A stretch of 64,000 nucleotides of DNA from assembly GCF_050947875.1 (NCBI RefSeq), contig NC_134576.1, forward strand, positions 53,072,255 through 53,136,254. The letters run 5' to 3'. The DNA is from Dermacentor variabilis. Taxonomy: Eukaryota > Arthropoda > Arachnida > Ixodida > Ixodidae. Positions 5,421 through 45,749 of this stretch are shown here, in pieces; the first letter of the stretch is position 1, and the number at the start of each line of letters is the position of its first letter. A model generated the notes under the pieces. That model saw only the letters and a list, made by a program, of their open reading frames with translations. It made no database searches and was not told where the DNA came from. The position numbers and the translations under genes were made by a program.

Positions 5421-7196
5421 ACTACGAGTTCACCTAAGGTTTCGTAATCATGAGCCGACGAAATTGAGCAGATTTAGATTCATGCCTTGCTGTACAAACA
5501 CCGATGCCAATTAACGTAGGCGAAGCACAAATAGTGAGTCAAATTGGTGGCGCCAAAGAAAATCATGCGCAAAGTGACGTACTCTCATCGTCCTCCCGGG
5601 AATGCAGCCATGAGCAGTCAGCCAGGAATATCGCGATATTTTAGTAATGCAGACCAGCAGTCATACGTGTGACTGTCACTCGACCGAATGCGCAGCAGAG
5701 TGAAAATAAAACAGGTGTGTCACACGCAATCAGCACAAGCTGAAGCGAAACACGTTCCCGTAACAGCAAGTGTGCGAATTAGCACGAACACGAAGAAAAA
5801 TGAAATTAGAGGCGGGAATATTTTAGAACGGCATTGCCGTGCCACCCAGATATGGACGAATAATAAACACGCCAAACAAATTATTTCGGCTATGCGAGTT
5901 TGGCTGATCACGTACGTTACAGTAAATGCGCGAATTGCGGGCCAGTGGAAGCGCAAGAAGCGCAGTTTTATGTCGCCATAACGACCGACACTGTTGGAAT
6001 CCTTAAAATGTCGGAATGCGTACAGCACCCGCTGGGAATATCCCGTCATGAACATGTAATTCTCCTTAAAGACCCTATTTATACAAAGGTACGAATTCTC
6101 CCGTACGCTTTCCGCGGACCATAGATGGCTGCAATTAGGAATCAAAGTGTCTCTGTTGGTACAACATCTTGCAAGCGTGTCAGGATCACGGAGAAAAACA
6201 TGAAAACGCGAGAAATAGTCGCTCACAATGCCGGCAAAAAGCACTCATTTATGTGTGAAATTACATCTCTTAAGGTTAGATTGTACACCACGGCAAGCTC
6301 GCAGTACACCTTTCGAGCGCATCGCGCAAACGTTATTTGTCCATGCAAAGTACATTTCACGGCAATAATTTTCAGGAATAAGGCACTTTCGTGTTGTGCT
6401 CACATTTTTTTTGGTCAGCAAAACGCAGGCATCGACGAGGCTGGATCCGCTTTCCGAGTCAAAGAAGTGACGCCGCGTACTTCAAGGGTCAACAAGGGTC
6501 GTTGGTTAACGCATCGAAACCACAAAATGTAGAGCTTGCTTCACAGAGAACTTATATAAGCTTGGGGAAGGGAAACTGTACCTTCCACCGTACAATGGCA
6601 ATAAGGGTAGTGGCCTTGTGAACCGAAGTATGCGACCGAGAGATGGCGCTAGAAAAATTAAAGCTACTGTCATCATTATTACGTATTACGTATTACGTAA
6701 TACATTATTATGTTACGTGTAACCGCTACGGTAGCGGCTGGTGGTGCTCGTCGCGCTGCTCGCTCACTGGTTTTGGGCGCTTTGTTACCGCTTTCGGGTG
6801 GTATTCGAGTCTGCCCAAGTCTGACATGACGACAAATATCTTTATTATGTCGCCAGGTGACCGAGAGGCCCCTCAACTGGCAAAAAAAAAAACAAAAAAA
6901 CTTCATACAAGTAAGCTTACATCGTTTATTGTTATGGTGAATGAAGCAGTATATGCCATAATTTTCATACAGGTCAGATGGAGTTAATGCTGTCAGTTAT
7001 TGAGTTTACAACATACAGAAACACAGATAGCCATCTATTTAATAATCCCGTTAAAATTGAGTTTTCTCATCCCGTTCAGCCACAGCAAGGATAACGAATC
7101 TTCAGACAACAATATTTATGCTGGGCTACCCTCGTACTTGTATGCCGTACAGTGCTACTTTACATGTTTCATAGTTTATTGTCTGCGTTCAACGAG
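5421..7196. other. Intergenic stretch; one unidentified 174-codon ORF
   Basis: The longest open frame is on the minus strand at 5720-6244 (174 codons). It is rich in hydrophobic residues and Cys. I recognise no domain, its composition resembles translated non-coding DNA, and nothing supports a splice or start context. Around 6680-6715 there is a short TACG/ATTACGT repeat with local self-complementarity. Otherwise I see nothing here. Confidence 0.5.
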
Positions 7197-7600
7197 TTCA
7201 GCTATATTAAAAAAAAAACTTCGAAAGGGCTCGGCAAATATTTACTTTCCGCCAGATAAGGTCGAGCTACAATGTCCCATTGTTTTCATAACACATTGGC
7301 GAGAGGCACGAAGTGTAGTAGTAAAAAATTGTTGTGCTACATTTTACATCACACATTGTCCACGCTTGATATTTTGCGGCTCATTTAGTGTGGAGGTGCG
7401 GCAGGAAAGGCTTCGACGCAGATTTCGAGAGCGGACAATGTGTGATGCTAAATATAGCATAACGTTTTTTTTTACTCCTACACTTCGTGCTTGCCGCCAA
7501 CGTGTTATGAAAACAATGGGACATTGCAGCTCCAGCTTATCTTGCGGAAAGTACATCTTTGCCGAGCACTTCTGATGTTTTTTTTTAAATATAGCTGAAA
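7197..7600. mobile_element. Fold-back MITE with ~165-bp arms
   Basis: TTCAGCTATATT at the left and AATATAGCTGAA at the right begin a long inverted repeat of roughly 165 bp per arm. Matching blocks are CTCGGCAAATATTTACTTTC with GAAAGTACATCTTTGCCGAG, AATGTCCCATTGTTTTCATA with TATGAAAACAATGGGACATT, and CACACATTGTCCAC with GCGGACAATGTGTG. The unpaired centre (about 7363-7430) has no ORF of interest. The ORF on each strand simply reads the arms. Confidence 0.85.
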
Positions 7601-7829
7601 TCGCAGGAAAGTGAGCAACGTTGTGGAGACAACAGTGCTGAGAAGGACCTTCGCAAATATTGTCTGAATAAGCAAGGACACCTAATAAACATGTAAGGTC
7701 GACTAATGCTCAGTAATACTTGGAAAATGGAATTTACCGTGCCATGTTGAAAAAAAATATCGGTTTGTGTGTTCAAACAAGTCAAAGAGCGTGCAAGGAG
7801 ATGAACATTTCAATTGAGTAACACAGGTG

Positions 7830-7924
7830 AGTAAGGGAAGCCTCAGCCTGGAGCCAATGTTTCAACAAAAACATTTGTGAGGGCCATGACGACGACAAGT
7901 TTCCACTCTGAGGCTTCCCTTACT
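7830..7924. repeat. 95-bp hairpin at the left edge of Element A
   Basis: AGTAAGGGAAGCCTCAG (7830-7846) is exactly inverted at 7908-7924 (CTGAGGCTTCCCTTACT). The loop, read on the minus strand, contains CTTGTCGTCGTCATGGCCC and TTTTTGTTGAAACATTGG. That layout is reminiscent of the long-terminal-repeat-like (PLTR) ends of Penelope-like elements elsewhere in the window (a stem, then CGAAACGTT-like sequence). It may be a Penelope-like PLTR remnant next to, or interrupted by, Element A. The identity is uncertain; the hairpin is certain. Confidence 0.6.
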
Positions 7925-7944
7925 AAAGGTTTTCCCGCTAAATT

Positions 7945-8125
7945 TAATCCAAGCGCCAGCCAATTTATTCCGAGCGCCAGTCAATTTAATTTAAGCGCCA
8001 GTCAATTTAATCTAAGTGCCAGTAATTTTAATCCGAGCGCCAGTCAATTTAATCCAAACGCCACTCAATTTAATCCAAACGCCAGCCAAAATAATCCAAG
8101 CGCCAGCGAATTTGATCCAGCACAA
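7945..8125. repeat. Subterminal 21-bp tandem array, Element A left end
   Basis: About nine tandem copies of a 21-bp unit close to CAATTTAATCCAAGCGCCAGT. Because 21 is a multiple of three, the array leaves a 94-codon frame open (7877-8161) with a FNPSASQ heptad. I regard that as a by-product of the array. Confidence 0.9.
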
Positions 8126-8661
8126 CGGAATTCAAGAACCTTTGCATTTCAAGACTTCTGAAAATTTGCGAACACATTGTGAGCTAACACCTTGAAAATG
8201 AAAGAGCGTGGTGGTAGACCAGTAGCTATCCTGCCACGGGACTAACGACAACTTTTGGAGGTTTTGAAGCGAAAAGCTTCACTACGCTATAGTGAACACC
8301 GCGCATCGCGCGAGCCGGCGTATGTCGGATTGGCTCCGTGAGCGTGTTCGGAGTCGAATGGGCTCCGCGAGCGTGTCGGAGTGTTCGCAGTCGGCGCAGG
8401 TGGCCACTGCCCCGCGCTATGCGTCATTGTTTGACGTTCGCCGCAAGCGCGTGTTTATCGCGGAGGCCGACAATATAACCGCTCGCTAGGGTATAGGCGT
8501 GCGCATTCAACATGGAAGTAGAAGAGAGTCATACTACCGATACAGAGAGCTGTGTTTATGGCTGTACAGAAATCGCAAGACAATGTGCCCAACAGTGATG
8601 AATAAAGAAGTTTAATAATCCTGCATAACTTATGGTATATATCATCGATAATCAATTTGCC

Positions 8662-8892
8662 TAACTACACAAGGCACACGTATAGCATAACCATAGGCTA
8701 AATCATAAAGCATAACCATAAACTGAACCGTCAGCAGATCCATAACTTCAACCATAAGCATATCCATAAGATAAACCCTAAGCATATCCAAGGCTAAATC
8801 ATAAAGCATAACCATAAGCTAAACCGTAAGCAAAACCATAGGCTAAATCATAAAGCTTAACCATAAGCTAAACCATAAGCATCACCGAACCT
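8662..8892. repeat. CCATAAGC 12-mer array, Element A left arm
   Basis: About 18 diverged copies of a roughly 12-bp unit, AACCATAAGCTA or AACCATAGGCTA, with a higher-order pattern (AACCATAGGCTAAATCATAA recurs). It forms a superficially telomere-like, strand-asymmetric tract. Confidence 0.85.
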
Positions 8893-9654
8893 TTTCGCTT
8901 CGAGATATCCAGGCTTAACCTTAGCTAAGCCCCAGCCAATTTTTTTTTATTTTCTACTTCGTTATGAGAGCGACACAGAAGATGAACATTCTTCGAATTA
9001 TTTGAGAGAAAACGTCAGCATGAGTACGTCGAGTTAATGGTACACATTCGATTTAGTCATGGCTATCAAACGATACAATAAAGGTTGATTCGATGATAAT
9101 CATTAGGCCCTCGCCGGGAGGCTTCGTTCGCTAGCGAATACGATTCACTATTCTACTGCGATATCCGCAGCCTCCAATCAAAGACCTTGTCATCGGTACC
9201 GCTAAAACAGTCATGGATACCATTTAATTGCATAACTAATATGGTCAAGCAACTAGTGATCACAAGTAAAATACATTGCGCAGTTCGGGGTTCTTGGTGT
9301 TTTGTGCAACATGGCGTCATATACGTCCAATGAAATGCGATGAAACGAGTGACTCACTATGCCTACTATAAACTCGTATACTTAAGTCACTGGTGAACAT
9401 TATTCACCTATTTTACTATCCCAGAGGCAGCTTTCCCTCGTGGGTGCCGTCAATACTATCAATGAAGCTGTAGCACGACGAGTACTTTTGCGTTACCACT
9501 GCCAACTGATACCGCCGAGTTTTAAGGCATCCCTAGTGGTGCGCTCTCCGCGATGTTCTCGAATTTGCATGCAGAATAGCGTGATAGATATGAAATCAAA
9601 TGTAATTCAGACGGCAATTCACAAACCATAATGTGATAACTATAGGAAATACTA

Positions 9655-10390
9655 AGATTGATTGACTCTAGTGATGAAGAATCACTTTGTGTAGTTTGAT
9701 GGTCAGAGCCATCATTCATGCACGCCGTGAATGTTATAAATGAAAGTGTCAATAAATGAGAGTTTTAATCAGTCAACATTGCTAATTTACATCGCAGAGC
9801 CATTAGTGATCACTAGCGATAAGCTCTGTTCGGTGTTCTTGCACTTTTATGCTGCATAGCGTCATGCATGTCAAATGAAACTTTTAAACAATGATCCAAT
9901 TATGATCATTTACGATCCCTGAGCATTTGGTCTGCTACCATTGCTACCTGATAGTGAAGAGTGAGTAGTGATCACTAGTGACAAGCTCAGTTCTTTGTTT
10001 TCGTACTTCTCGCAGCCTAAAGTCATGCGTATCAAATTAAAATTGAGTCAAATCGCAATACAAGTTTAATAACTAGGAGGTGCTAAGCATTTGTCACTAG
10101 TGATTACGAGTCACTTTGGTATCGCGGCGGCAGCCATCAGTCGGGCACGTAGTCATTGATATCTATCAAAATGTTATTGAATTAGTATTTTCTCTACTAC
10201 TATTGCTACCTGATAGTAAAGTGATCACGAGTGATAAGCTCAGTTCAGCGTTCTGTTACAATTAGAGTTTGTAGTGTCATGGAAGTGAAATGATAATTCG
10301 AAGGATGATTCAAATTTTATAACCTGGGGTTACTAAAATTTAGTCACTAGCAATCACGAGTCACTTTGTCAATGGTAGCCATCATTCGTT
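9655..10390. repeat. Inner TCACTAGTGA repeat array, Element A left arm
   Basis: Diverged copies of a composite repeat of about 160-250 bp. Recurring pieces are GTGATCACTAGTGAC-like palindromes (9806, 9968, 10221), GTCACTAGTGATTACGAGTC (10095) and GTCACTAGCAATCACGAGTC (10346), and a CATGCATGTCAAATGAAA-type block. Each copy places TCACTAGTGA next to its own inverted half-copies. The same motifs occur in Element B. Confidence 0.75.
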
Positions 10391-10500
10391 CATTTTGCTC
10401 TAGGTGAATATTTCTCCTCTGAGATTTCAGATGTGGTCGAAATACTGGTGGTCAGTTGTGACTATGTTCACTTCAATTTTCTTCACTACCTGCAAATCAC

Positions 10501-11048
10501 ATCTTCATGGGCTTAAAATGAAAGGCCGCTCAAAAGGTAATTCGATTATGAAGGCTAGGAACTGACATGTATGAGCCAATTGACGCAAAGAAGCCGAGGT
10601 GACGTTATAGTTGCCAACTTTTTGAATTCTTAAGCCTTGTTTCACTAGAACGGTGCAAGAGGCACCAATTGATTTGAAGAAATAAATGGAAACAAAAATG
10701 ATAGCGTAGCAGGAGCAATGCTTCATCAATTGGCTTGTAGTAGATTTATTTGCAAAAGATCTAATTCGATATTTAGCAGAAAGGGTTAGTATGTTTAAGT
10801 GCCTTTAAACTCTTGTGAAGCAATTGATTGCGTTGGAAAGACGACGCCTGTGAATTGTGCATGTAAACACTGACCATAAGAGCTACGCGTAAATATGTGA
10901 GAGGAAAACTTTATTGTTATAAAATAAAAACACTTTGTTGGAAGACTGTCGACTTTCCTTCGAGTGCAGCACTGAGCAGTTTTAACACATCGTGGCCCTC
11001 CAGGGCAGCTTGCACAAACGTGTAGTTGTGCCTGTAGTAAGCAGCGCA
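10501..11048. other. Element A spacer, 3' of the transposase
   Basis: A 74-codon minus-strand ORF (10505-10729) has no recognisable domain. The remainder is non-coding, and I see no polyadenylation signal clear enough to call. Confidence 0.5.
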
Positions 11049-12090
11049 CTAAACTCGCAGGATGTGCTGCATTGACTCTCCCGCGGTCTCAACCAACAGT
11101 GCCCGGCGATGCTGTTTCTTGGAGATACCTGGTGGTGTCATGAAAAGACGGTCGCGCCGTTCAGCAAGAAAAGCCTTCACACCAGCCTTGAACTTCGAAA
11201 AAACTTCTTCGATTGGATTGAAGAATGGGCTGTAGGGTGGAAGCCGCTTCACTGAGTGCTCAGTAGTGGCCAAGAGAACCTCCTCAGCATGGCGGTGCGC
11301 TGGCGCGTTGTCAAACAAAAACACAGCTTCAGTGCCAGGTTCCTGATGATGAACCTTCTTGGACAGATCATCGAGAAATTCGTTGAATACAGCCCAGTGG
11401 ATCTTGTCCACTAAAGTCCAATTCATAAGGCCATTTGCAGACATGCAAGCCAAAACATTTATATTCGCACCCTTTGTGCTGGTTGCAAGACGAATAGCTG
11501 GGGCAACTCGTTTCGCTCTGCCAAAACTTTTTGCGCACCACACGTTGAAATTCGTTTCGTCGATGTAGTACCGCGTGACTGTGGTACCCTCGTTTTGAAG
11601 CCACTGAGCGAACTTGCGGCGCTCTTCCTTGACATCAGGACGGTTGCAGTCAACCGGCCTCTGAGTAATTAACTTAAGTGTATAACCATGGCCATCGAGA
11701 AGCCGATCGGTGGTAGACTTGCTTATTTCGGTACCGGGAAACCTCTATCAACGACATCCGGATTTGCATAAGCGTGAAGGATGGGTTCTTTTCTAGAATT
11801 TCACGCAGAGTATTGACCACATCTCGGTCAAACTTTTTTGACGAGCTACCACGTGTCTTGGCTGTTTCGCGATCTGTTGCGGTGATTGAGCGCACAGTCC
11901 TTATATTTATTCCCAGTGTTTCGGCCAATTGCTTCAAGTCCCCACCTCGTCGGTACGCATCGATGATGCGGGAACGATCCACGGCAGAAACGCGAGCGTA
12001 CTTGGTCTTTTCTTCATCAGGCATCTTTCTTGGTCGTCCAGCAGCTCGCACCTTGCCTGATTCCATGGCACAAATTTTCAAAATATTCAC
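11049..12090 (-). pseudogene. DDE transposase of the IS630/Tc1/mariner superfamily (one frameshift)
   Basis: Minus-strand gene of about 346 codons between the arms of Element A. The N-terminal half (12090 to about 11745) has a basic RPRK segment and a helix-turn-helix around LKQLAETLGINIRTVRSI. The reading frame shifts once near 11745. The second half holds the DDE fold: YYIDETNFNVW (first Asp, about 11550), FLFDNAPAH (second Asp, about 11311) and LPPYSPFFNPIEE (Glu, about 11209; spacing 33 or 34 residues depending on which Glu is catalytic, as in DD34E/D enzymes). Two possible starts are at 12090 and 12066. With only one lesion it is nearly intact, and the frameshift could even be a sequencing error. 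Its role would be cutting and joining at the element ends. A related decayed copy lies at 34655-35600. Confidence 0.85.
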
Positions 12091-13862
12091 TTTACATTAG
12101 AGCTGAGGAACGCCTCTCACGATGATCGCACAACGACTGACGCTGGTCATCTTCCTGTCGTCTGCACGGAAGTGCTGCACCAATGATAGAATCAACCGCA
12201 TGTCGTCTGCTTTACTTAGAATGGTAGTCTTTCCTCTCGAACATTAGTTCAAGAATTTATGTTTCGTACAAAGCTGCCATAATTCCCAGACGCAAGCTCT
12301 TACGGTCTTTATTAGCCGGTATAACGAAGTGCCTCGTTTACACTATCCAGACAATCGTGGTAACACCCCACGGACCACTGCAACTTCATTAGTCGTCTGC
12401 TCGCGCCCTGCAAGAAATGGCTTTCACTATCTTGAACCTTCTGCGAAATTTGAGCGTGACACATTCGACAAATATCAGTCAAGCTTCGTTTTGCCTCCTT
12501 GCGTTCACTGGTGTAACTTGACGCGCTAGCACAAATTATTAGGCTGATGAATAAAACTTACTTTGAACTTTTTCTGTACGACATCAAAGCACTTTGATGC
12601 TCGGAAGTCTAGCTTTTGCAAAACCCACCTAGCTTCTTGCGAGCCCATAGTATACAGGGATGGTCTTACTTTTGCCTAGCCAGTAGCATATGGCAAATAC
12701 CGGAAGCGAAACTGTGATACTCAAACGGGAAAATTCATTGTGGCCATTCGAAGGGCTTCTTAAAGTCGAAACACGAAAGTGGCAGGCTCATGGTGGTCGC
12801 GAGAGTAAGCTTTGCCGCAGTTCGAGATTCGCCACTTTTGTCAGCCATTGATGAAGCTCAGGAACTGCCTGGCCTTTGCTTCACAAGCACGCATCCAGCG
12901 GACGCACACAGTGAACAGAATTATACAGGAATATTGACAAGAAGAGGGCATCCCATACGATGGACCTGACTAATGTCCACAAACAATGACTGATAGAGAT
13001 GACGATAAGCAAGGCCATATATACAAATTAAGCTCTCCCTAAAAGGAATAATGTACGCAGAAACACGTCAAACCAAAACAAATGCAACCGTTCTCGGCAT
13101 TTATCATTTACCATGTTATTAGCATGGCCCTCTTTAAGTGAAGGAAAACAAAACACAAATTGTAGTGCACGCAGTTATGCTTGCTTTTCAAGAGGCGTGA
13201 TGCTTTTTTAAAAAATTATTGTAAAGCCATTCTTGCCCATGGCATCTTGAGCAATTAAGTGTCCATTCCAGTTTTTTTGGGCCGTTTCGTCGTTTGTTGC
13301 CGCGCTTTTTACTCATTCACATCATTCGCTTTTTCAAAAAATTTGTTAGAACAGCAAACCGTCAAATGGGCCACCTTTTTCTGAACGTATCAGACCTGCG
13401 AAAACGTTCTGTACGCATCACAGCTACCATATGCTTTGTAAAGCACCCTGAACGTCCTGTTCATTTGATAGCGTAATACCGCAGTTTACATATGTGCGAC
13501 GTACGGGAAATGTGACGTGATCTGTCTTCTCCAGGGGCCAAACCATATGAGATCCTACACAGCGTAATCTAATCACGCTGCTAACGACTTTTCGTGAGAT
13601 GCCCTTACAGGGAAGAATTGTATATACCCGGCAAACAGAACTGTGCAAAATCACTATTTATTGCTAATGACTTGCTGATGTTCTTTATATTCTTCAAATT
13701 ATTGCTGGTTTATTGAAACTTTACCCAATTCCAGCGAGTACAAGTAGACTCTGTAATGGTAAAAAAGTTATTGATATTTACTAGTGGCTCAAACTTCTCA
13801 TTTCATGATTGTCCTAACTTAATCACCTTTTGAGCAATGTTTCATTTTATGTCCATGAAGCT
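12091..13862. other. Element A spacer, 5' of the transposase, with a possible LINE relic
   Basis: This is the likely promoter side of the transposase. At 12329-12529 a plus-strand frame contains FDKYQSSFVLPPCVHWCNL. It loosely resembles the FFPRTV..WN.L end of CR1-type LINE proteins and is followed by a GATGAATAAAACTTAC tail. It could be a decayed LINE 3' end, but the match is weak. The remaining sequence to 13862 shows no gene. Confidence 0.35.
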
Positions 13863-15062
13863 GTGATTTGTGAGTAGTCGAGAAAATTAAAGTGAACGTA
13901 GTCACCATTGACCACCAGTAATTCGATCACATCAGCAACCTCCGGGGAAAGCAATTAGGGGAACACATTCAATACCTGTGGCAAAATGAACGAATGTTGG
14001 CTACCGCTGTTATAACAAAGTGATTCGTGATTGCTAGTGACTAATTCTTATCATCTCCATGTTATTAATCTTGAATCATCGTTTGAATTACGATTTGACA
14101 TGCATGACGCTATCCAGCATAAAAGTGCAAGAACACCGAACAGAGCTTATCGCTAGTGATCACTAATGGCTCTGCGATGTAAATTAGCAATGCTGACTGA
14201 TTAAAACTCTCATTTATTGACACTTTCATTTATACCATTCACGGCGTGCATGAATGATGGCTCTGACCATCAAACTACACAAAGTGATTCTTCATCACTA
14301 GAGTCAATCAATCTTAGTATTTCCTATAGTTATCAAAGAATGGTTTGTGAATAGCCGTCTGAATTACATTTGATTTCATATCTTTCACGCTATTCTGCAT
14401 GCGAATTCGAGAACATCGCGGTGACCGCACCACAAGGGATGACTTAAAACTCAGCGGTATCAGTTGGCAGTGGTAACGCAAAAGTACTCGTCGTGCTACA
14501 GCTTCATTGATAGCATTGACGGCACCCACGAGGGAAAGCTGCCTCTGGGATAGTAAAATAGGTGAATAATGTTCACCAGTGACTTAAGTATACGAGTTCA
14601 TAGTAGGCATAGTGAGTCACTCGTTTCATCGCATTTCATTGGACGTATATGACGTCATGTTGCGCAAAACACCAAGAACCCCGAACTGCGCATTGTATTT
14701 CACTTGTGATCACTAGTGGCTTGACCATATTAGTTATGCAATTGAATGGTATTCTTGACTGTTTTAGCGGTACCGATGACAAGGTCTTTGATTGGAGGCT
14801 GCGGATATCACAGTAGAATAGTGAATCGTATTCGCTATCCACCGAGGCCAAATGATTATCATCGAATCAACCTTTATCGCATCGTTTGATAGCCATGACC
14901 AAATCGAATGTGTACCATTAACTCGACGTACTCATGCTGATGTTTCCTCTCAATTAATTCGGAGAATGTTCATCTTCTGTGTCGCTCTCATAACGAAGTA
15001 GAAAAAAAAATTGGCTGGGGCTTAGCTAAGGTTAAGCCTGGATATCTCGAAGCGAAAGGGTT

Positions 15063-15268
15063 CGGTGATGCTTATGGTTTAGCTTAAGGTTAAGCTTTAT
15101 GATTTAGCCTATGGTTTTGCTTATGGTTTAGCTTATGGTTATGCTTTATGATTTAGCCTTGGATATGCTTACGGTTTATCTTATGGATATTCTTATGGTT
15201 TAAGTTATGGATCTGCTGACGGTTCAGCTTATGGTTATGCTTTATGATTTAGCCTATGGTTATGCTAT
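15063..15268. repeat. CCATAAGC 12-mer array, Element A right arm
   Basis: Inverted partner of 8662-8892: TTATGGTTTAGC and TTATGATTTAGCC units alternate over about 200 bp. Confidence 0.85.
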
Positions 15269-15827
15269 ACGTGTGCCTTGTGTATTTAGGCAAATTGATT
15301 ATCAATGATATATACCGTAAGTTATGCAGGATTATTAAACTTCTTTATTCATCACTGTTGGGCACATTGTCTTGCGATTTCTGTACAGCCATAAACACAG
15401 CTCTCTGTATCGGTAGTATCACTCTCTTCTCCTTCCATGTTGAATGCGCACACCTATACCCTAGCGAGTGGTTATATAGTCGGCCTTCGCGATAAACACG
15501 CGCTTGCGGCGAACGTCAAACGATGACGCATAGCGCGGGGCAGTTGCCACCTGCGCCGACTCCGAACACTCCGACACGCTCGCGGAGCCCATTCAACTCC
15601 GAACACGCTCACGGAGCCATTCCGACATACGCCGGCTCGCGCAATGCGCGGTGTTCACTATAGCGTAGTGAAGCTTTTCGCTTCAAAACCTCCAAAAGTT
15701 GTCATTAGTCCCGTGGCAGGATAGCTACTGGTCTACCACCACGCTCTTTCATTTTCAAGGTGTTAGCTCATGTGTTCGCAAATTTTCAGAAGTCTTGAAA
15801 TCCAAAGGTTCTTGAATTCCGTTGTGC

Positions 15828-15990
15828 TGGATTAAATTCACTGGCGCTTTGATTATTTCGGCTGGTGTTTGGATTAAATTGACTGGCGCTCGGATTAAAA
15901 TCTCTGGCACTTGGATTAAATTGACTGGCGCTTAGATTAAATTGACTTGCGCTCGGATTAAATTGACTGGCGCTAGGATTAAATTGAACG
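15828..15990. repeat. Subterminal 21-bp tandem array, Element A right end
   Basis: Inverted counterpart of the left array, with units close to GGATTAAATTGACTGGCGCT plus one base. About eight diverged copies lie just inside the terminal CGGGAAAACCT. Confidence 0.9.
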
Positions 15991-16219
15991 GGAAAACCTG
16001 CAGTCCACTGTTGATTGGCTGAATGTTAAGCCAAACTTGTTCCCAGTATATTTCAAAAAAAAAAATTTGGGAACACACTGTTCAGGTTTATCAACTGCTC
16101 TTTGATGAGAAAGAAAAATTGTTTTTATTGATTTGTCATGTTTGAGAAGTGGGGAGTAGGCCGGCTGTTTGCATTTGCCTTTTCTAGTTATCGCTTACGG
16201 TGCAGGGCTTGACTAGTTT

Positions 16220-17045: not shown

Positions 17046-19800
<2,755 letters not shown>

Positions 19801-19829
19801 CGTACAATTGCCTCTCTCGCGACCTCGGC

Positions 19830-22800
19830 GCAGTTGGTGATGGCATCGAGTACCTCATGACTGAAATTCTCATGAACCCACCCAGAAAGGGCCTAAGAAG
19901 AAACAGCCTTTATATCCTCAACGTATACTGCAGCCCCAGCTACCGCAGGGCGAGGGCGGACTCTCTCCTCGAGAGGGCCGTCAGCCTGGCCGTTGGACAC
20001 CCCCTTGTTGTCGTCGGGGATTTCAACGCTCCACATAGGGTGTGGGGGTACACCCATGACACGCCCAAGGGACGCGAACTGTGGCAGACCGCGATGGAAC
20101 TGGACTTGACCCTTATCACCGATACGGACTTCTCCACTAGGAGAGGCAACTCAGCATGCCGGGACAGTACCCCAGACCTCTCTTTTGTCAAGAACGTAGG
20201 GGAGGTCAAGTGGGTCAACACGGCTCTAGACCTCGGAAGTGACCACTACGTCATCGAAGTCTCCCTCCCGATAGCCCGCTATAAGACGAGGAAATTCAAG
20301 CTGATCGACTGGGACGTTTTCCGCAAGATCAGAGCCGAGCGCGCACCGATGGCGGAGACAGATTTTGAAGGTTGGTGCAAAGGGATAAAGGATGACGCCG
20401 CGGCGGCAAACAAGGAGGTCGTCACTGAGCTCGACGTTGACAAGATGGATAGCAGATTGGCGCACCTGCTGGAAGCCAAGCAAGCCCTCCTCACGAGGTG
20501 GAAGGGGCAGAAGCATAACAGGAGGCTCCGCAAGAAGGTTTCGGAGGTTAACAGGGAGATCGAGCAGCACTGCAAGAACCTGTGTAAGCAACAATGGGAT
20601 GAGCTTTGCGAATCCGTCGAGGGTCAGCTCAGATCAGGCAAGAGCTGGGGTCTGCTCAAACACCTTCTCGATGAGGGCAGCACCAGATCCAGCCAGAGAC
20701 GATCCCTCGCGCAAGCCATCCACCTCGTTACGGACTCTACCCCGGACGAGTTGATTGTCGACAGGCTCATAGACAAGTACCTGCCTGTCGCGGATAGCTC
20801 TGCCCCTACCCAGTTCCCGGACTACGCGGGGTGTGCGGTGCCGGAGTTGGACCAGGACTTTACCGCGGCCGAGATCCGAGATGTCCTCTTCTTACCCAAC
20901 GTGAAATCTGCCCCTGGTCCAGATGGCGTCACTAACAGGATGCTGAGGAATCTCGATGGTGAGTCGATCGACTTCCTCACTGAAAGGATTAATGAAGTCG
21001 GGCGCAGTGCACAGGTCCCCACACAGTGGAAGGCGGCCTGCATGGTACTCATCCTCAAACCCAGTAAAGCACCAGGAATAGAGAATCTAAGACCAATTTC
21101 CGTGGCGTCCTGTGTTGGTAAGGTTGCAGAGCGTGCCCTGCTCAACCTTCTCAAGGTGCACATCGAGGCCAATGACATGTACACCCATAATATGATTGGT
21201 TTCAGAGCCGGCCTATCGACACAGGACGCCATGAAGCTGATAAAGCATCAGATCATCGACCGGAGCACGGGAGATACCAGAGCCATCCTTGGACTAGACC
21301 TGCAGAAGGCGTTCGACAATATCTCACACGAGTTTATTCTCCAGTCAATTGCCGGCCTCGGGCTCGGGAAGAGGGCCTACGACTTCGTCCGATCCTTCCT
21401 TAGCCAGAGAACTGCCAAGCTCAAGATTGAAGGATACCTTTCGCAAGAGATCACCCTCGGTTCACACGGCACGGCTCAGGGCTCAGTCATCTCGCCAACA
21501 TTATTTAACATCGCAATGATCGGGCTTTCTAAGGAGCTCGCGAAGATTCAAGGAATGAACCATACTGTCTACGCAGATGACATCACCATCTGGTGCGTCG
21601 GCGGGAGCGACGGCTAAGTTGAAGCCGCCATGCAGAGCACGACAAATGCGACCGAGCACTTCCTCCGCCCACTGGGCTCAGATGTTCTCCATCAAGATCT
21701 GAGCTACTTCTCTACAAGAAAGGACCCTGAGGTGGTGGCCATCGCGATTGGAAATCGGCGTGCGAAAGCGAAATACGGCGTTTCACTGGCGACGGGTCTC
21801 CGGTGCCTAGAGTGGGCTCGCTCCGAATATTGGAGATGTATATCGAGTCTAACGGTTCCGATGGAACTGCACTCAGAAAGATCACCGCCAAGACGGAGAG
21901 TGCTCTCGCCCTCGTTGGGAGGATCGCCAACAGGCACCGGGGAATCAAGGAAGACAATATCATCCGCATTATACATGCTTTTGTTCTCTGCCACCTTTCA
22001 TACTCGGCGGCCAAGCATAATTAGCATGCGGCTGAGAGGAACAAGCTCAATTCACTCATCAGAAAGGTTTTTAAGCTTGCCCTCGGCTTGCCTGCAAGCA
22101 CCCACACTGAAAACCTGTTGAAGCTCGGAGTCCACAACACGCTCGAAGAGATTATCGAGGCACAAGAGCACTCACAGCTGCTCAGGCTATCCGGCACCCC
22201 AACGGGCCGCGAGATACTCGACGAGATGGGCCTCAATTCTGTCGACCCGTGCCCTGACGCCGTGCGGATTCCCAGCGACATCAGGTCTCAACTGCACATC
22301 GCGCCCCTGCCCCGCAATATGCACCCTGTAAACAACGTCGGCAGACGTCGGGCCAGGGGTACAGCTATACTAGAGCACGTCCGCAATAACCACATTGAGG
22401 CAAGCTTCGTGGATGCCGCGGCATATGTCCAACAAGAGGCATTCGCCGTCTAAATTGTAGACTCGCAATTCAAGGCTCACTTGTTGCGCTACGGTACGCA
22501 CTTCGAGGCCCGTGGTAGCCAAACAGATTGTAATGGCGCTGGCTCTGCTCGATGGCCGCAGAGAGGCAATATATAGTGATTCCAAGGCAGCCATTAAGGC
22601 CTACCAAAGCGGTATGGTCTACCCTCAGGCCCTCCGCATTCCCCAAAGCGCCAAAAGTATCTCTCCGCATTCTCTCTTTTGGTTTCCCGCTCACTTGGGG
22701 TCAATGGAGGGTTCTCCCTGTAACCCTAACAAGGGCGCACACGAGACCGCGCGAGCACTCACTGACCGCGCCGCCTCAGCAGTCCCTCAGCCCCGCGGGG

Positions 22801-30615: not shown

Positions 30616-31700
30616 ATGATGGAGCTCCAAAGCAGTCGGCGCTGCGGTGCAACTACCATGGCAGACCAGCCTGAATCTGTGTCTGCGCCACCGACCAAGA
30701 ATGCTTTATCTCACCCTCGAGACCCTGCAACATTCAACCTGGCCGATGACGCTTACGCGGAGAAGTGGCTGACACAAAACAAACGGTTGAGCGATCACAA
30801 TCACTGGGACCTGTCTGTCATGCTAGCCAATGTGGTCTTTCGTCTGAGTGGAACGGCGAAGGTATTTTAAATTCATGAGGCCGAATTTGGGAGCTGGGAT
30901 GCATTGAAGCAAAAGCTCCGTGACCTGTTCGGTAAGGCCTCCCGTCACAAAAGCGCTACGAAGAAACATATGCCAACGCGAGCCCAAAAGTCCACGGAGT
31001 TGTACCTGTCGTACATACAGGACGTGTTGGCGCTGTGCGGTAAAGCTTACAGCCTTATGCCACAGCCTGAGAAGGCTGGCCACGTACTGAAGGGTATAGC
31101 GGACGACGCATTCAATCTGCTCTCGTGGAGAAATTCTGCTACCATTGGTGCCGGATTAAGGAGTGCCAGCGCTTCGAGCAGGCCAAATACCGTCATGACG
31201 TCTTCGTCTGCAAAGCAGCCGCCATCTCACACCTTTGACCGCCTTCGTTCGAAATGATGAGGATTGTCCGCCGCGAAATCGAAGTGATCGCTCCAGCTAG
31301 CCTCTTTGCCAACTCTAACACCGGTGACTCGAACGCGTCATCGGTTTCACTCCTCGAATTCGTCGTGCGAAACTAACTCGCGAACCTCGGAGCTCGCGCT
31401 GCTTGCGCCGTGGACAGTCGTACGTCCACCCTCGGCACCCTGCTTATTGCAGGACTGTAGACGATCGACCTATCTACTTTAACTGCCACCGTGTCGGTCA
31501 CGCTGCTTGCTACTGTAAGAACCGCTGGTCGTATCCGCAATGTACTGTACCCTTTGCCCATGCTCGCCGCCTCGATCGCCGCGCTTTTGAGCCACCATTT
31601 GCGGCACACCCATACAGTCCTGACGCTGAGACGAAATGGTTCAGCTGCTCGTCGTCCCCTAGTGGTCACCAGTCCCGCTCGCACCATTCAGCTGTCCGTT
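30616..31700 (+). pseudogene. Gypsy gag relic, truncated by Element B
   Basis: Plus-strand gag-like sequence. 30616-30868 is a first open piece (DPATFNLADDAYAEKWL), ending in a TAA. 30904-31140 continues with WDALKQKLRDLFGK and KSTELYLSYIQDVLALCGKA, the retrotransposon gag helical domain. A frameshift follows, and around 31455-31520 there is a broken zinc knuckle, IYFNCHRVGHAACYC, in which the first Cys is replaced by Tyr. No protease or pol follows: at about 31716 the sequence passes into the Element B repeat array. Confidence 0.75.
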
Positions 31701-31715
31701 CTTCCGCTTCTCGCC

Positions 31716-32366
31716 GTGATGTCACCATGGTTCTCACCCACGCATGCACTGTCTTGACCTGTCGGCATGCAGATGAAACAAAATGGCTTTCAAAGGGTGA
31801 CAACAGGCTCACTATCACTCAGTCCCATGATGTGGTCACTAGTGACTAACGTGACGTCACCGCGCTTTTTACCAAACCACGCACTCTGCTAACATGTCGA
31901 CTTGTATTCAAACAAAATGGCTCCCAAAAAGTAACAACCTGCTCACTATCACTCAGTCACGTTAGGTGATTGCTAGTGACTCACGTAACGTAACCACGGT
32001 TCTCGCCCACGCATGCACTGCGCTAACCTGCCAACATGCATATCGAACAAAATGGCTTTCAAAGGGTAACAACTGGCTCACTATCAGTCAGTCTCATGAT
32101 GTGATCACTATCGACTCACGTGATGTCGTCACGCTTTTCACCCAACCATAAACCCCACTAACCTGCCGACATGCATATCAAACGAAACGGCTTTCAAATA
32201 GTAACAACCTGCTCACGATCACTGAGTGAAATGGAGTGGTCACTAGTGACTCACGTGACGTCACCATAATTGCACGCGAGCATCAAGTCCCCTTACGTAC
32301 CAACACGTATATCAAAAGAAATGGTTTTGAAACGGCAGACGGCTCCTGACTACCGCTCAATAAAGG
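31716..32366. repeat. 135-bp tandem repeat, Element B left arm (~4.8 units)
   Basis: Register landmarks are GTGATGTCACC (31716), AGTGAC (31841, 31975, 32245) and ATCGAC (32110), giving a period of 134-135 bp. Each unit carries GTCACTAGTGACT-like palindrome, GTGACGTCACC, CATGCATATCAAACGAAA and a CTCACTATCACTCAGTC block. Confidence 0.9.
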
Positions 32367-34654
32367 GCAACTTTGGCGAGTTTTTCATCATGTCAAGGTA
32401 ACAGAGTATTAGTGTCCCCAAAATTGCCCGTCACGCGTATGATGTAAGAATTGTTCCGCAAATTTGAAAATAATTTGGATAAGAAAAAAGCGCTAGATCG
32501 AAACTGAATTCTGACCAAGCAGCCAAGCGAAGCTCTTCGTGAGACGTCACCAGCGTCGCCAGCGTTGAAGGCACGCCAGTCAAGGCGCTCTCGCCCGCTG
32601 TGCGTACAAAACCAGCAAAGATAAAAAGCTCAACAGATTCTTGACGGAACCGGCCCTTCAGGTGACAATGTCAGCGGCACCAGTTTTTCGGATCTGTACA
32701 ATATTGACAGTTATGATTCAGGCGAATTCAATAGTCGCGAGTCGCCGTTCGCATTCTAGCCACCACCCCGAGAGCCAGCGCCACTGCGCCACGTATTGTG
32801 CTGCAACATGAAGACCAAGAATAGCCCCAACCACTGATTTTATACGTGCTGCTTGCTAGTTTAGGCGTTTTACCCTTTGTCAGGGAAGCGCTTCGCATGC
32901 TCACTGTAGATGTGGAGCGCGACTTTCCGCATTTGTATGCCGCAAGTACGCCGCTGACACTACAGTGCACCCAGCAGCGCATTTGTTTACATCGGCTGCA
33001 GTGTTGCGGAATGGGCGCCCTCTTTATATTCGAATTTCATTCTGTGGAATTAGAACTTGCCGCAATTCGATTCTTTTCAATTTCTTGGAGTGACAAATCT
33101 TAACCCAATCCTTCTCCTGGAATGGCTGAATAGTTCAATTCCATTCCTGTAATTCCTCAACGTACGAAAGGCTTCTCGGTAGGTTTATCTAGTTAACGAT
33201 AATCGCACATTAAAGCTGATGTCACCAGATGCGTTAAGAACGGCAAAAATATGCAAACCACATTAACAATGCCGAGGGATAGTAGCTTGGTGACATATCT
33301 CATGCAATACGACCACCCTACTAATTGCCATATGGGCAGTTCTCCCGCTACCTATAGTATTTTCATGGTCAGCATGTTTTAACAGCTTGTGATGTTTAAT
33401 ATTGTTTATGGTTAAATGTGTTAGTGCTAAAAGGAAAGCATAGCGCATTTTTGCTTAGGTGTCGTCATGATATTGAAATGCTACAATAAATGTGGCAAGC
33501 AGTGCAAGGCGCAAAGAGTTTCATTTTGGTTTAATGGATCAAAATCTTGCAGCGAAACGTCATGACCTAAATGGGCACTTCACCATTTAGTTTTGAAACC
33601 CCGAAGTGTAAACGACGGCTGCTTCAACGGTTAGTTCTAAAGACAAAGAAGTGCGATAAAACAATTGCCTTCTGTTTGTTGCGCTTCACAAACGTGAGCT
33701 GCTCGAAAGAGGTTCATGACTGCCGATTTTCTTTTGCTGTCATTATCAGAGATGTCGTAGAAAACATGCGTTCATGTCAGCTGACGTCGCAAGGCAAAGT
33801 TGAAAGCAAGGGGAAGCGTCTAGCGTTTGCTTTCCAATAGGTCAGTGGCTTAGCTGTGTCTGCGCAAGTTCCTTCTGTAACGTGAAGAGAAATATTGCCT
33901 GCAATAGATCCAGGCATATGTCCTTTTGCCAGATGTTTTTAAAACATCAGTCTGCTTGGCCCCGCGTGGCCTCGCTGACTGGTCTTATATTCCAGGCAAC
34001 TGTACTTCGGGGCAGAGCGATTTGTACTGGAAGTGGTGACGTACGCAGGATTTCAATTTCCCAGGGTAGGGGGGTAATCTCCAAAAGAAAGGAGAGGGAG
34101 ATCACGAAAGGAGAAAGATAGCGCGGAGCACGAAATACAGTATGACAAAAATTGCTTGAACAAGGAACCAAACAGATCCAAATAATTTAAAACGTAACTT
34201 AGGAACACCGTGGGCATTCTTTATATGATGTTTCAGTTCTGTTTGGTTTTGTCCTTGGTGGTACTTCAGTATGGTTGATTGACTTTGTAATATGAGATCT
34301 GGAAGTCGCGAAAACTAGGTGCCTGCGCTGCGGCAGAAAAATAATCCTCAGCCACTATTTGATGGGAAGCAGAGTTCGTCACCTAAGCCATGGCAGCAAA
34401 TGCGCCATGAATCCTCAAGATAAAAAAGGGAAACACGCTCGAAAATTTGCCCAAACATGATCCGGGGGTAGTTCTTTCTCTATATTTGAGCTGACCACCA
34501 TGGAAGATGGGACTCCTGAAGACAAATAGGCGAGTGTCGCACGAAAGCGGGGTCCTTCGTTCAAGGACCGAAATGAGCCGAGAAAAAAAACAGGGTGTCT
34601 GATGTCGCCGGAGAATGAATCGTCGATGCCTCTAGGTATCGCTGGGTATAAACT
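32367..34654. other. Element B spacer, upstream of the transposase relic
   Basis: No gene recognised. An 89-codon ORF at 33571-33840 has no known domain. Around 33020-33165 there is TTC/GAATT-rich sequence of repeat character. The 2.3-kb stretch may include later insertions. Confidence 0.45.
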
Positions 34655-35600
34655 AGACGCTGGGTATAAACGTAAAAACTGCAAGGTCAATTGTACGGGC
34701 AGACCGTAAAGTTTCTATGAAAATGGGTGGCTTTGTCCGAATGTCTGGCACCGACGTTGTTGCCGTTGTAACAAGAACTTTTGACGAAAACCCAATGGTG
34801 ACGCTGAAACAGATAAAGATAACCGTTGTACAAGACATACCAGAAATCACAATCTGCACCAGTTCAGTTGAGCGCCTGCTCGACGCGCACATCTACTCCA
34901 TAAAATTAGGGACCCAGAGGCCGGTGGACTACGAACGCTGCGACGTGAAGACGAAGAGAAAAGTGTATGCACAATGGTTGCATACAAATGCGTCCCAGGT
35001 TGGCCCCTTTTACGCCGACGAAACAAATTGCAACATATGGTGCTAAAATTCGGCCGGGCAAAAAAGGGCACGGCAGCGCTGCACACGATGACTTCGACGA
35101 AAGGCGCGAACATCAACAGCATCGCCTGCATGTAGTAACGGCGTGCTGCACTGGCTAATTGTCGAAAGGGTCCATTGCATGGTATTTAATTACTTCCTCG
35201 GTGACGCGTCTGCCATGAACGTATCTGGGGTGCCGGACACAGATGCCGTGTTCCTTTTTGACAACGGTTCCAATGACAAGCGCGCAGAACAGGCAACTAT
35301 GGTCAGCTAGAACCAATACTTCAAGACCTTGCAGCTGCTGCCACAGAGCCTCTTTTTTTAAATCCAATTGAGGGAGTTTTCTCCATGTTCAAATATCAAG
35401 TTAAAAGGTACGTCAGAGTGTGGCGCGACGCAGTGCTGGTGACTCCACAAGAAGACACACAACCGGAGCAAAGGGGCTCGTTGTTCGTGGATGCTGCAGA
35501 ACACGTAATTCCACTTGTTCAGTGCGTGGTTTGCGCGGAATTCGATAGGCACATCTTTTCTTTTGTTCAGGCTGCGCTCAGAGAGGACGAAGTGTAGTAG
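34655..35600 (+). pseudogene. DDE transposase relic, related to the Element A transposase
   Basis: The plus strand begins with LGINVKTARSIVRADRK, matching the helix-turn-helix of Element A (LGINIRTVRSITATDRE). 34717-35046 carries VERLLDAHIYSIKLGTQRPV (compare DRLLDGHGYTLKLITQRPV) and FYADETNCNIW, the first-Asp block. After frameshifts, 35155-35310 has DAVFLFDNGSN, the second-Asp block with the following His region changed, and 35366-35410 has NPIEGVFSMFKYQV, the Glu block. At least three frame changes and several stops make it inactive. Divergence from the Element A protein is large, so the two are separate lineages of one family. Confidence 0.8.
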
Positions 35601-36210
35601 GCCTCCTCGGGCAGTCCGATGGCTTCTTTTGCAATCAAATGCCGCATTGAATAAATTACATGTTTGTGTTCAGGAGATCTCAAGGAACTTTTTTTTACAT
35701 CTGGTGTCGAGGAATATGTCTCACTAAACTCATGACGAATCTATATTGCAGGTTAACCTTCCTGCAGTTCATTTGTGAACTTTGTGCGAAAAAAATGCGC
35801 ACTCAATCCTACAGATCCCTGATTCAACTAGTCCTAAATTTTCCACCTGTATTTCGCTAACACTCAGCGAGCAACAAAATATTATTGCATAGGTATACAC
35901 TTCGCTATCAGGTCGGTACTATAAAAAGTTCCTGGTCATATTAGAACAATTTTTCTATAATGAGAAATTCAATTCTTTTGTAAAAAAAAACGTGTCACTA
36001 AATGCATATATATTGCCCGTGAAAAATAATTTGCTTGTATATCAGTGCCGTAATTACTTGAGGGTGCGTACTAAATATTCTTCAAGGTTATGCCGTGTGA
36101 GTCACCATGTTAATACGGATTGCACCTGTAAAATCACCTGCCCTCTAGCCCATCTGCTAGCACGAGCACCTCAGAACAGCGCAGCGTCAGCCACTATTGA
36201 CCACGACATG

Positions 36211-36775
36211 TTAATGAGCGATAGTCAGCAGCTAGTTGCCCTTTCAGAAGCATTCCTTTTCACATACGTGTTGGCGGGTAAGGGTAGTTGATTGCTCACG
36301 TGCGACTGTGGTGACGCCGCGTGAGGCACTAGCGATCAACCCATTTCACTCAGTGATCGTGAGCATGTTGTTACTCTTTGAAAGCCGTTTCGTTTGATAT
36401 GCATGCTGGCAGGTTAGTAGATTGCATGGTTGGGTGAAAAGCGTTGTGACGTCCCCTGAGTCACTAGTGACGACATTATGGGACTGAGTGATACTGAGCC
36501 TGTTACCTTTTGAAATTCATTTCGTTCGGTATGCATGTCGGCAGATAAGGAGAGTGCATGCGTGGATGAGAACCATGATGACCTCACGAGAATCACTATT
36601 GGTTACGTCATTTGACTGAGTGATAGTGAGTGGGTTATTATGCTCTGAAAGCCATTCGTGTGATATGCTAGTCGGCAGGTAAGGAGAGGTGCGGCGGCGG
36701 TGACGTCGAGTGAGTCACTAGTGACCTTAATAATGTGACTCAACAATAAGCCGTTGCACTCTCCGAAACATTTGC
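36211..36775. repeat. 135-bp tandem repeat, Element B right arm (inverted)
   Basis: Reverse-complement counterpart of the left array. CACTAG/CACTAT landmarks at 36327, 36462, 36594 and 36716 give periods of 135, 132 and 122 bp. GACTGAGTGATACTGAGCC and CATGCATGTCGGCAG mark each unit. About four units. Confidence 0.88.
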
Positions 36776-36800
36776 ATGTCGGTAGCGCGGAGGGGGGGGG

Positions 36801-36956
36801 AGGGGGTATTCTGTAAGAGTCCACTTAGTGGAATGTTCATTTCGGCCTCTGCTGATTGGCTAGGGCCGCTCGTTCCCTTTTCTCTCGTACAGCTGCATCC
36901 AATGAGCAACGGCCTAAATGGACAGTCCACTAGTTGGGCTCTTACAAAATACCTCC
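36801..36956. mobile_element. 156-bp fold-back MITE in the Element B right arm
   Basis: GGTATTCTGTAAGAGTCCAC at the left is inverted at the right (GTGGACTCTTAC-type; read as GGGCTCTTACAAAATACC). The arms extend about 45-60 bp through GGAATGTTCATTTCGGCC and GGCCTAAATGGACAGTCC. No coding sequence. It lies just outside the 135-bp array and inside the 21-bp array. Confidence 0.75.
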
Positions 36957-37419
36957 CTGGTGTGCACCAAAGGTGCATGTGTATTGAGCGATAATGAGTA
37001 CTCGTTTAATCTTCATGTCAACTGCCTGAGTAATGGTGGGCAAGTTCTTACTCATTCGACTCATTTAAAATGTGCATAGAGTGAAGGATAGGAATCGCAT
37101 GTCGTGAACGCAACCCAAGTCGCGTAATGTGCATCACGATTGTGACTCACTTATGCGAGTATATGTTGTTACACGGAAAGGCGACTCTATAAGGAGGAAA
37201 TGAGTAATTTACCGCGCAGTCGCGAATGTTTCTCCAGCAGCCGTTACGGCACTGGTAGCATGGAAACTGTGCACCTATAGTGCTGACACCAATACAGTGA
37301 TGACCCCAATTATTATGTGGCATTCATGACGCCTGTTTGGACCTTTTTGCAAGAATTATTGCTCCTCAATCAAATTCCAACATGTATGAATTGACTCTCA
37401 CGGCGTATAAAATAAATGG

Positions 37420-37610
37420 CTTTTGGATTAAAATGACCAGCGCCATGAATAAATCAGTTGGGCACGCTGAATAATTGGATGACGCTGGGAATAAAGGTGT
37501 TGGTGCTGGGATTAAATAATTGGCACTTGGATTACAAATGTTGGCGCTGAAATTACATAAGCTGACACCTGGATTATTTGCAATGGATGCTTGGATTTTT
37601 ATCAAGCGGA
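37420..37610. repeat. 21-bp array at the Element B right end
   Basis: About nine diverged 21-bp units, for example GGATTAAATAATTGGCACTTG and GATTACAAATGTTGGCGCTGA, of the same family as the Element A units. The adjoining end GCAAAAACTGCAG resembles GGAAAACCTGCAG at the right end of Element A. Confidence 0.8.
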
Positions 37611-37615
37611 ACAGC

Positions 37616-38531
37616 AAAAACTGCAGACGCGTATGGTCACGGATAGAGTCAGCGTAAGTCATGTTTGCGGGTGACGAAGCAGGTTCTGGCTGGAGGACTG
37701 TCTCAGTTGGCAATACTGTTGCCAGGGCCCGGTGCAGCTCATCGCGAAATAGGCTTGTCACTGCTGAGATTTGTGGGGCTGTGGCAGGGAGCACTTTTAA
37801 TGTTCTTTACGAATTATATAGCCTGAAATGTCACGCGAAGGCTATTAGCGTCGAGTGCATTCGCTTCAGCGTTGCTAGGAGCAAGATGTGGGATGTCACG
37901 GTTGTACTGCCTGGCCCATACCTCAAGTGATTTTAAAGCGAAGCTTTCTATGTCTCACCTATTCGCCCGTCATCGCAGAAAACGCACAGCAGGAAAGCCA
38001 ACTTACGCCACCTGCATAGAAAACTACAGTTTGCATTCGCAGTCGTACGCATAAGAATACTGAACTTTTGTGTTCAGTGAATCCGCGATGTGTTTCTGCG
38101 CCGCCGGAGACTGGTGTTGGTTTTGGCCATAAGTGACCAATATTATTGCAATTAAGCACTTTGAAGCTTCGCCGTTGTGCGAGGTCAAATTAAGCCTGAC
38201 GCAGTCACTTCGACGGCCGCGAATAATCATAGGCGTGAATACGCCGAGCAGCCATGGGGCAGCCTCCCAGCCGACTACTGGGATTCACCGGTTCCACAAC
38301 CTGCTTTCTACAAGTGCCACACCGTGTACCATGCCCACTTCGATGGAATTACAAGAAATCCAGTCCATGGAATTCGCTTCAAACAACCAGAATGTGACAA
38401 CGTCTGACCGCGCCACGTCAGTATTGCACGACACGTAATCCAACTGGACTGACAATTATATATATATAATATATCCCAGTCAAAAATTCCAACAAGACCA
38501 TGTCTGTTGGCTATGCGGAAATCTGGCATAT
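37616..38531. other. Non-coding flank of Element B
   Basis: Contains GATTTTAAAGCGAAGCTTTC (37931), a small palindrome, comparable to GAAGCGAAAAGCTTC in Element A (8268). A 101-codon plus ORF (38133-38438) has no recognisable domain. Confidence 0.5.
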
Positions 38532-38692
38532 CGGCTTGTCGGCCTGTCGGCCTGTTGGCTTGTCGGCCTGTTGGCTTGTCGGCCCGTTGGCGTATTGGCC
38601 TGTCGGCCTGTTGGCGCATTGGCCTCTCGGCCTGCTGGCGCATCGGCCTGTTGGCTTATCGGCCTGTTGGCTAATCGGCCTGTTGGAGCTCA
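38532..38692. repeat. GGCCTGTTGGC minisatellite
   Basis: About 16 copies of a roughly 10-bp unit alternating TCGGCCTGT and TGGCTTGTC types. Both strands stay open, giving repetitive ORFs that should not be taken as genes. Confidence 0.95.
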
Positions 38693-45421: not shown

Positions 45422-45748
45422 CTAAGTGTTGTTGTCTATAGCTTGAAATTTGGCATAGCGAATAGATTCTAAAGCTCCCTTTGAAACGTTTATGCCTATT
45501 GGTTGCAATGTCTTGAACTTATGGATAAGGTATGATTCCCTGTATTGTCTTTCTTGTTCAGAACGAAAAGTTGTTTGTAAGATGTAGGGTTTAAATTCAT
45601 CAAAGTTATGACCTGGTTGGTTGAAATGCTCGGCGACGGCTTTGGGAAGCTTTTCAGCTGTGTCCGCATGATATCCGTTTAATCTGACATTCATTGATTG
45701 TCCTGTTTCACCGATATATTGTTTCTTACAGAAGGAACGTTCAAGCAT
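45422..45748 (-). pseudogene. GIY-YIG endonuclease domain of a second Penelope-like element (minus)
   Basis: 108 codons: the frame contains KKQYIGETGQSMNVRLNGYH, a GIY-YIG signature (QYIGETG, R), then KLPKAVAEHFNQPGHNFDEF and a tail QERQYRESYLIHKFKTLQPI. Such GIY-YIG nucleases end Penelope-like reverse transcriptases. The RT part of this element is not adjacent. Instead, another Penelope-like unit precedes it (46053 onwards), so this is the remaining 3' part of a separate element. The ORF start at 45748 is only where the frame opens. Confidence 0.8.
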
Positions 45749-45749
45749 T

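Follow-up and report, generated by a model that had tools for sequence, protein, structure and literature searches.

Transposons of the IS630/Tc1/mariner class usually have short ends, and in Tc1 34 residues lie between the second D and the E of the catalytic D-D-E triad. In the parts of published work consulted here, the ends of the Tc1/mariner-type class are given as 26 to 30 bp. According to the same partial sources, Tc4 of Caenorhabditis elegans, whose range covers nematodes, arthropods, and tardigrades, has a fold-back structure, aligns with the TcMar group, carries a DDD triad, and duplicates TNA within CTNAG, a CT..AG-type target; the Meloidogyne chitwoodi mariner Mcmar1 has terminal inverted repeats (TIRs) of 355 bp that are enlarged by direct repeats and palindromes and tend toward a Foldback-like structure, and, as a mariner, is listed among the DD34D elements. 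Galileo of Drosophila combines long, internally repetitive TIRs, whose repeats bind the THAP domain of its transposase at several sites, with a P-type THAP enzyme and target duplications of 7 bp, rarely 8 bp, and Mutator-type foldbacks such as Tm1 and Tetris have composite, array-built inverted arms, gene-less members, and duplications of 9 bp and 8 to 10 bp, respectively. Here we describe a transposon in a 64,000-nucleotide stretch of Dermacentor variabilis contig NC_134576.1 (the window; positions count from its first letter). Positions 7926 to 16000 are a single copy, element 1, in which two inverted arms of 2.65 and 2.2 kb flank a broken transposase gene. We read it as one copy of an IS630/Tc1/mariner cut-and-paste family in ticks, in which the ends have expanded into inverted arms that are built of arrays and resemble those of Foldback elements, and assign this reading a probability of about 0.93.

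Each arm of element 1 contains three kinds of array, with units of 21 bp, 12 bp, and about 135 bp, the last centred on a palindrome (Table 1). By blastn, the outer arms pair at 7927 to 9899 versus 15999 to 14071 (1,974 columns, 93.7% identity) and the inner arms at 10220 to 10578 versus 14164 to 13785 (73%). Inverted pairs at E ≤ 1e-10 amounted to 25 rows in the window versus none in 20 Markov shuffles. The pairing and the array coordinates thus confirm the two arms with three array kinds that an earlier, sequence-only reading had proposed. The transposase motifs which it had named in the spacer (YYIDE, FLFDNAPAH, and YSPFFNPIEE) are likewise all present, in a gene that is split over two frames and has one later in-frame stop. 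Its matching ends, AGGTTTTCCCG and CGGGAAAACCT, exist, but the true terminus lies one base further out (A7926 and G16000; CAGG..CCTG); the shortfall arose because element 1 carries A in place of the initial C.

A second copy in the window, element 2 (31715 to 37623), is older, belongs to another subfamily, and is built on the same plan: a 135-bp array stands inverted on either side of a decayed relative of the transposase, and for three of the five left units the best partner is the right-hand unit in register. On the 3' side of the gene, the arm is 404 bp away in element 1 and 585 bp away in element 2; the distances to the other arm are 1.7 and 2.1 kb. The exact palindrome TCACTAGTGA occurs six times, each time within an arm of element 1 or 2, and all 11 matches to CATGCRTRTCAAAYRAAA (1.1 expected) lie inside these arms as well, on arm-consistent strands. 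The 21-bp unit gave 20 matches versus 0.6 expected, 15 in the arms of element 1 and 5 in the right arm of element 2, and RTCACTAGTGAY at up to two mismatches gave 34 versus 7.3 expected (21 in the arms and 1 in the spacer of element 1, 9 in the arms of element 2, and 3 elsewhere).

The gene and the arms recur genome-wide as one unit with defined ends and a TA duplication at CTAG. A search of the window's own genome with the gene returned 43 rows, among them the window copy and a few that are fragments of the same copy; of the other 42 rows, the 20 with the highest scores (L009 to L028) were retrieved together with about 4.45 kb of sequence on either flank. Arm blocks adjoined the gene in all 20, on both sides in 15 (L009 to L011, L013 to L021, L023, L024, and L028) and on one side in L012, L022, and L025 to L027, where the other side showed at most a trace within the fetched stretch. 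The sequence-only reading had proposed Foldback arms and an IS630/Tc1-type enzyme as one unit and had said that genome copies in which the gene stood mostly armless, with short TIRs of its own, would speak against it; no such pattern was seen among the 20 copies fetched from the window's genome, and the presence of arms next to the gene in every one of them supports the proposal. The same observation bears on chance nesting, i.e., the insertion of a Tc1/mariner-type element into an unrelated foldback element. Such an event would fit the short ends that are usual for this transposase class, the eight exact inverted 10-mers, some of them overlapping, around the element 1 gene (shuffle mean, 1.0), and the window copy taken alone, which has no duplication of at least 4 bp within 12 bases of its ends. 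Yet the gene-to-arm offsets are similar in the two subfamilies, the gene of element 1 or 2 is not enclosed by any inverted pair, whether of 16 bases (up to two mismatches) or of 20 bases (up to three), and TA duplications sit at the outer ends. With arms beside the gene, no short inverted pair, and duplications at the outer ends, we reject nesting for the copies examined and leave it next to no probability.

The genome copies end in CAGGTTTTCCCG, starting with CAGG and finishing with CCTG. The exact 25-bp end CAGGTTTTCCCGCTCAATTTAATCC occurs 47 times in the genome, whereas a backward-pattern control occurs 0 times. Among the 46 distinct flanks of these ends (one was dropped since L040 and L041 share a 20-base flank), TA is adjacent in 40, CTA in 38, and ACTA in 30. 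Some of these ends also belong to a set hand-picked from fuzzy matches, in which TA stands beside 16 of 18 left and 10 of 15 right ends, element 1 included. Element 1 itself reads C-TA/AAGG ... CCTG/CA-G (slashes mark the element boundaries), the right TA appearing as CA. In subfamily 1, TA was found on both sides in 12 of 18 cases, namely, 9 of 14 two-ended copies and 3 of 4 further end pairs (L030, L031, and L053/L054 with TA/TA; L029 with CA/TA). When the flanks of L017 were joined across a single TA and used as a query, 40 places matched across the junction (40 scored of 515 candidates), the site lying in a common repeat; 9 of the 10 empty sites fetched, which are paralogous, read CTA/G, with a single TA, and one CTG/T. 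The target is thus (A)CTAG(T) with duplication of TA, and the TA duplication expected in the sequence-only reading is shown both by the flanks of genome copies and by the L017 empty sites.

This target also speaks to whether the arms are moved by some other enzyme, e.g., of Mutator type, with the IS630-type gene as a long-standing passenger. Published foldbacks are mostly assigned to Mutator in the literature as far as consulted, and gene-less copies exist here: three elements of 2.2 to 2.5 kb (L029 to L031) carry the family ends, two of them with TA on both sides. A TA duplication in CTAG, however, suits IS630/Tc1/mariner and not the 8 to 10 bp of Mutator-type foldbacks, the D-D-E triad is preserved in the gene of both subfamilies, and the remaining spacer of element 1 has only frames of fewer than 100 residues in a listing that involved no search aimed at other enzymes. 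We regard a passenger gene as very improbable.

The closest relative of the element 1 transposase is a Dermacentor andersoni protein (94% identity). Named relatives with at least 41% identity come from ticks only (Dermacentor, Rhipicephalus, Hyalomma, Ixodes, and Ornithodoros), many rows being nameless; below them, the first match with a name is a firefly protein of 28% identity. Collections of viral contigs and genome contigs yielded no relatives. Tick gene sets annotate these genes as "hypothetical" or "Tc1-like." The Pfam model DDE_3 exceeded its own cutoff in all five proteins tested (P0001, P0012, P0015, P0029, and P0066), and P0001 and P0066 (116 and 131 bits) were also above the cutoff of 100 bits of the NCBIfam IS630 model NF033545. 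The AlphaFold model of P0001 had a mean predicted local distance difference test score of 79 and a predicted template modeling (TM) score of 0.59. In a fold search with this model, full-length Mos1 was best by E-value, with low overall TM-scores, and the catalytic domains of Sleeping Beauty and SETMAR gave TM-scores of 0.68 to 0.76 by target length. The triad residues, retained in both subfamilies, are spaced by 82 and then 33 residues in open copies. A frame of 361 residues with all three motifs is present in L010, L012, L017, and L020 and, with the second motif altered, in L014; L010 and L059 failed the motif filter in one frame scan, the 361 residues and three motifs of L010 coming from another.

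The second subfamily was followed with P0012, which returned 117 rows pooling both subfamilies and fragments; four copies were fetched (L059 to L062). Their TIRs span 888, 888, 676, and 697 columns and carry 21-bp arrays outermost; four to six palindrome sites lie 3' of the gene, L060 having one extra on the other side. Both ends were found in all four by a pattern that lacked the CTA/TAG flank letters, and three, of 3.8 to 4.25 kb, read CTA/../TAG. L061 contains a 363-residue frame with the D-D-E triad; the gene matches of L059 and L060 have no internal stops but start at residues 13 and 12, respectively, a start codon not being evident, and the L060 frame counted from its first M has only 215 residues. 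The two subfamilies, which differ at about 40% of residues, thus share ends, arrays, and gene position. In the tree, element 1 groups with P0001 and element 2 with P0012/P0033 (support, 94/94 and 100/100), element 2 filling only about 30% of the columns. Rhipicephalus proteins occur in both groups, which implies that the plan of arms and gene probably predates the split of the subfamilies.

Several observations weigh against a family of this kind and are to be set beside the evidence above. Choice by score favours well-kept copies, and the empty sites cover one insertion only, that of L017. TA is missing from one or both flanks in L029 and in 5 of the 14 two-ended copies, including element 1; in L018 and L062 the final G is lost and CCT abuts TAG. 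P0012, P0015, and P0029 (99.4, 93.4, and 87.3 bits) remain under the NF033545 cutoff.

Compared with the described systems, the tick family shares with IS630/Tc1/mariner elements the DDE_3 domain, an N-terminal helix-turn-helix, a single frame of about 360 residues, the TA duplication, TIRs with a defined end, and the Mos1/Sleeping Beauty fold; it differs in the 33 residues from the second D to the E, the array-built TIRs of 0.7 to 2 kb, and the preference for CTAG. Long TIRs built of tandem arrays, about 2 kb in one form and 0.7 to 0.9 kb in others, are Foldback-like, but only TA is duplicated and the enzyme is of IS630 type, unlike in Mutator-type foldbacks. No THAP model was among the Pfam matches of the examined proteins, and neither the THAP enzyme nor the 7- to 8-bp duplication of Galileo applies. 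Tc4 differs in that the tick enzyme has E as the third residue (NPIEE) and TA is duplicated in CTAG. Of the papers matching the label DD33E, one concerns transposons, a bee pogo variant. Among the titles, abstracts, and passages of open-licence PubMed Central literature consulted, no tick element of IS630 type with near-2-kb, three-array arms was found. The "distinct family" of the sequence-only reading therefore holds for the combination of enzyme and arms, which appears uncommon and new in its present form within this literature, but fold-back or enlarged ends in Tc1/mariner have precedents in Tc4 and Mcmar1, at a smaller scale or in another enzyme lineage. Foldback-like, array-built ends have thus arisen with an IS630-type enzyme too, beside the Mutator and P-type cases.

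TIRs longer than 2 kb, claimed from the window copy, represent only one structural form. By blastn, arms of about 2 kb and elements of 8.0 to 8.2 kb were found in element 1, L009 to L011, L013, and L015 (arms of L011 and L015 in two pieces), whereas L016 to L020 have TIRs of 0.7 to 0.76 kb and sizes of 5.9 to 6.2 kb; TIRs of L021, L024, and L028 reach about 1 to 1.2 kb in single alignments. A further pair of exact ends (G000:C9:38904008-38913262, L053 and L054), separated by 9.2 kb and flanked by TA at either end, is absent from the gene rows. Two-sided and mostly one-sided palindrome arrays are both present in both subfamilies, so gain and loss of arms are indistinguishable. Mutual conversion between the two arms of one copy might have made the long arms: between the element 1 arms the 21-bp array is 91% identical, the following segments of the outer 2 kb are 97%, 97%, 95%, and 96% identical, and the inner palindrome block is only 77% identical, and the L017 arms are identical across the tested block. 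The two arms of a copy, on the other hand, were closest to each other in no more than 5 of 11, 4 of 11, and 2 of 9 copies, depending on the segment, and long arms are common to other copies, which points to inheritance of the long form instead. As a general maker of arms, conversion is unsupported by these counts, and we consider it unlikely.

By analogy with Galileo, the nearest tested case, the transposase would bind the repeated sites in the arms; it would pair both element ends, excise the element, and paste it at CTAG, and gene-less copies would be moved in trans. The palindrome TCACTAGTGA of the arrays of about 135 bp has the core ACTAGT, identical to the target consensus of the family. 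It is a rather doubtful idea, and a lead only, that the arrays thereby supply the element with copies of a site like its own target and have been retained in both subfamilies as a functional part; by chance alone, a given 6-bp palindrome would match in 1 of 64 cases. If it were true, the arrays could be decoys or landing places for self-insertion, or one DNA-binding surface could read both arms and target. Because some copies combine an open frame with a clean target duplication, the role of long repetitive ends could be studied with a small enzyme from a single gene. By analogy with Galileo, ectopic recombination in tick genomes would probably also take place at such long inverted arrays, and repeat libraries may lack the arms.

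Table 1. Coordinates of elements 1 and 2 in the window
Feature	Positions	Strand	Remark
Left target-duplication copy, TA	7924..7925	.	Preceded by C7923 (CTA); CTA/CAGG rule from genome copies
Left arm, element 1	7926..10578	+	First base A; C in most other copies
21-bp tandem array, left arm, 8.5 copies	7941..8119	+	
12-bp tandem array, left arm	8684..8886	+	
Palindrome-centred array, left arm	9249..10462	+	Spacing 98-162, mostly about 135 bp
IS630-type DDE transposase gene, broken (frameshift, stop)	10983..12087	-	DETN, FLFDNAPAH, NPIEE present
Right arm, element 1	13785..16000	-	Last base G
Palindrome-centred array, right arm	13901..14720	-	
12-bp tandem array, right arm	15064..15271	-	
21-bp tandem array, right arm, 7.6 copies	15828..15987	-	
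Right target-duplication copy, CA	16001..16002	.	Most copies TA; then G16003
Element 2 left arm remnant, 135-bp array	31715..32363	+	Outer left end missing; retroelement-like sequence adjoins
Element 2 decayed transposase	34500..35594	+	Nearest P0012/P0033 (Dermacentor silvarum)
Element 2 right arm, 135-bp palindrome array	36180..36790	-	36790 placed by eye
Element 2 right outer 21-bp array, diverged	37408..37576	-	
Element 2 probable right terminus, ..AAAACTG then CAG	37577..37623	-	Inferred by analogy with element 1

Read in one frame, the 12-bp arrays of element 1 would give a Gly/Tyr-rich peptide. Capture from a host gene was rejected as their source, a protein search having given five candidates, none at E ≤ 0.1; nothing matching the 12-bp array was seen in L021 and L023 to L028, which are more distant copies. 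At 7193 to 7603, immediately left of element 1, lies a separate palindrome (79%) that is perhaps an unrelated miniature inverted-repeat transposable element (MITE). The right arm of element 2 contains a MITE-like insert (36809 to 36960) with the ends GGTATTCTGTAAGAG and CTCTTACAAAATACC, as judged by eye. Adjoining the broken left end of element 2, decayed gag-like retroelement frames with a motif resembling a zinc knuckle by eye occupy 30904 to 31711, a single frame of which had no Pfam match, and about 1 kb past the element a 16-bp tandem array, TGGCTTATCGGCCTGT, extends from 38524 to 38686.

Elsewhere in the window, a 3.2-kb stretch at 45609 to 48805 is self-inverted at 89%, with frames on both sides that by eye resemble GIY-YIG/Penelope-type sequence; Pfam gave no match in the two frames searched. 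A candidate third transposase copy at 20640 to 20957 was discarded, being a frame of a long interspersed nuclear element (LINE) that had been matched via the seemingly chimeric gene model P0052. The LINE-type frame at 19761 to 21617 comprises 618 residues, with endonuclease and reverse transcriptase domains.

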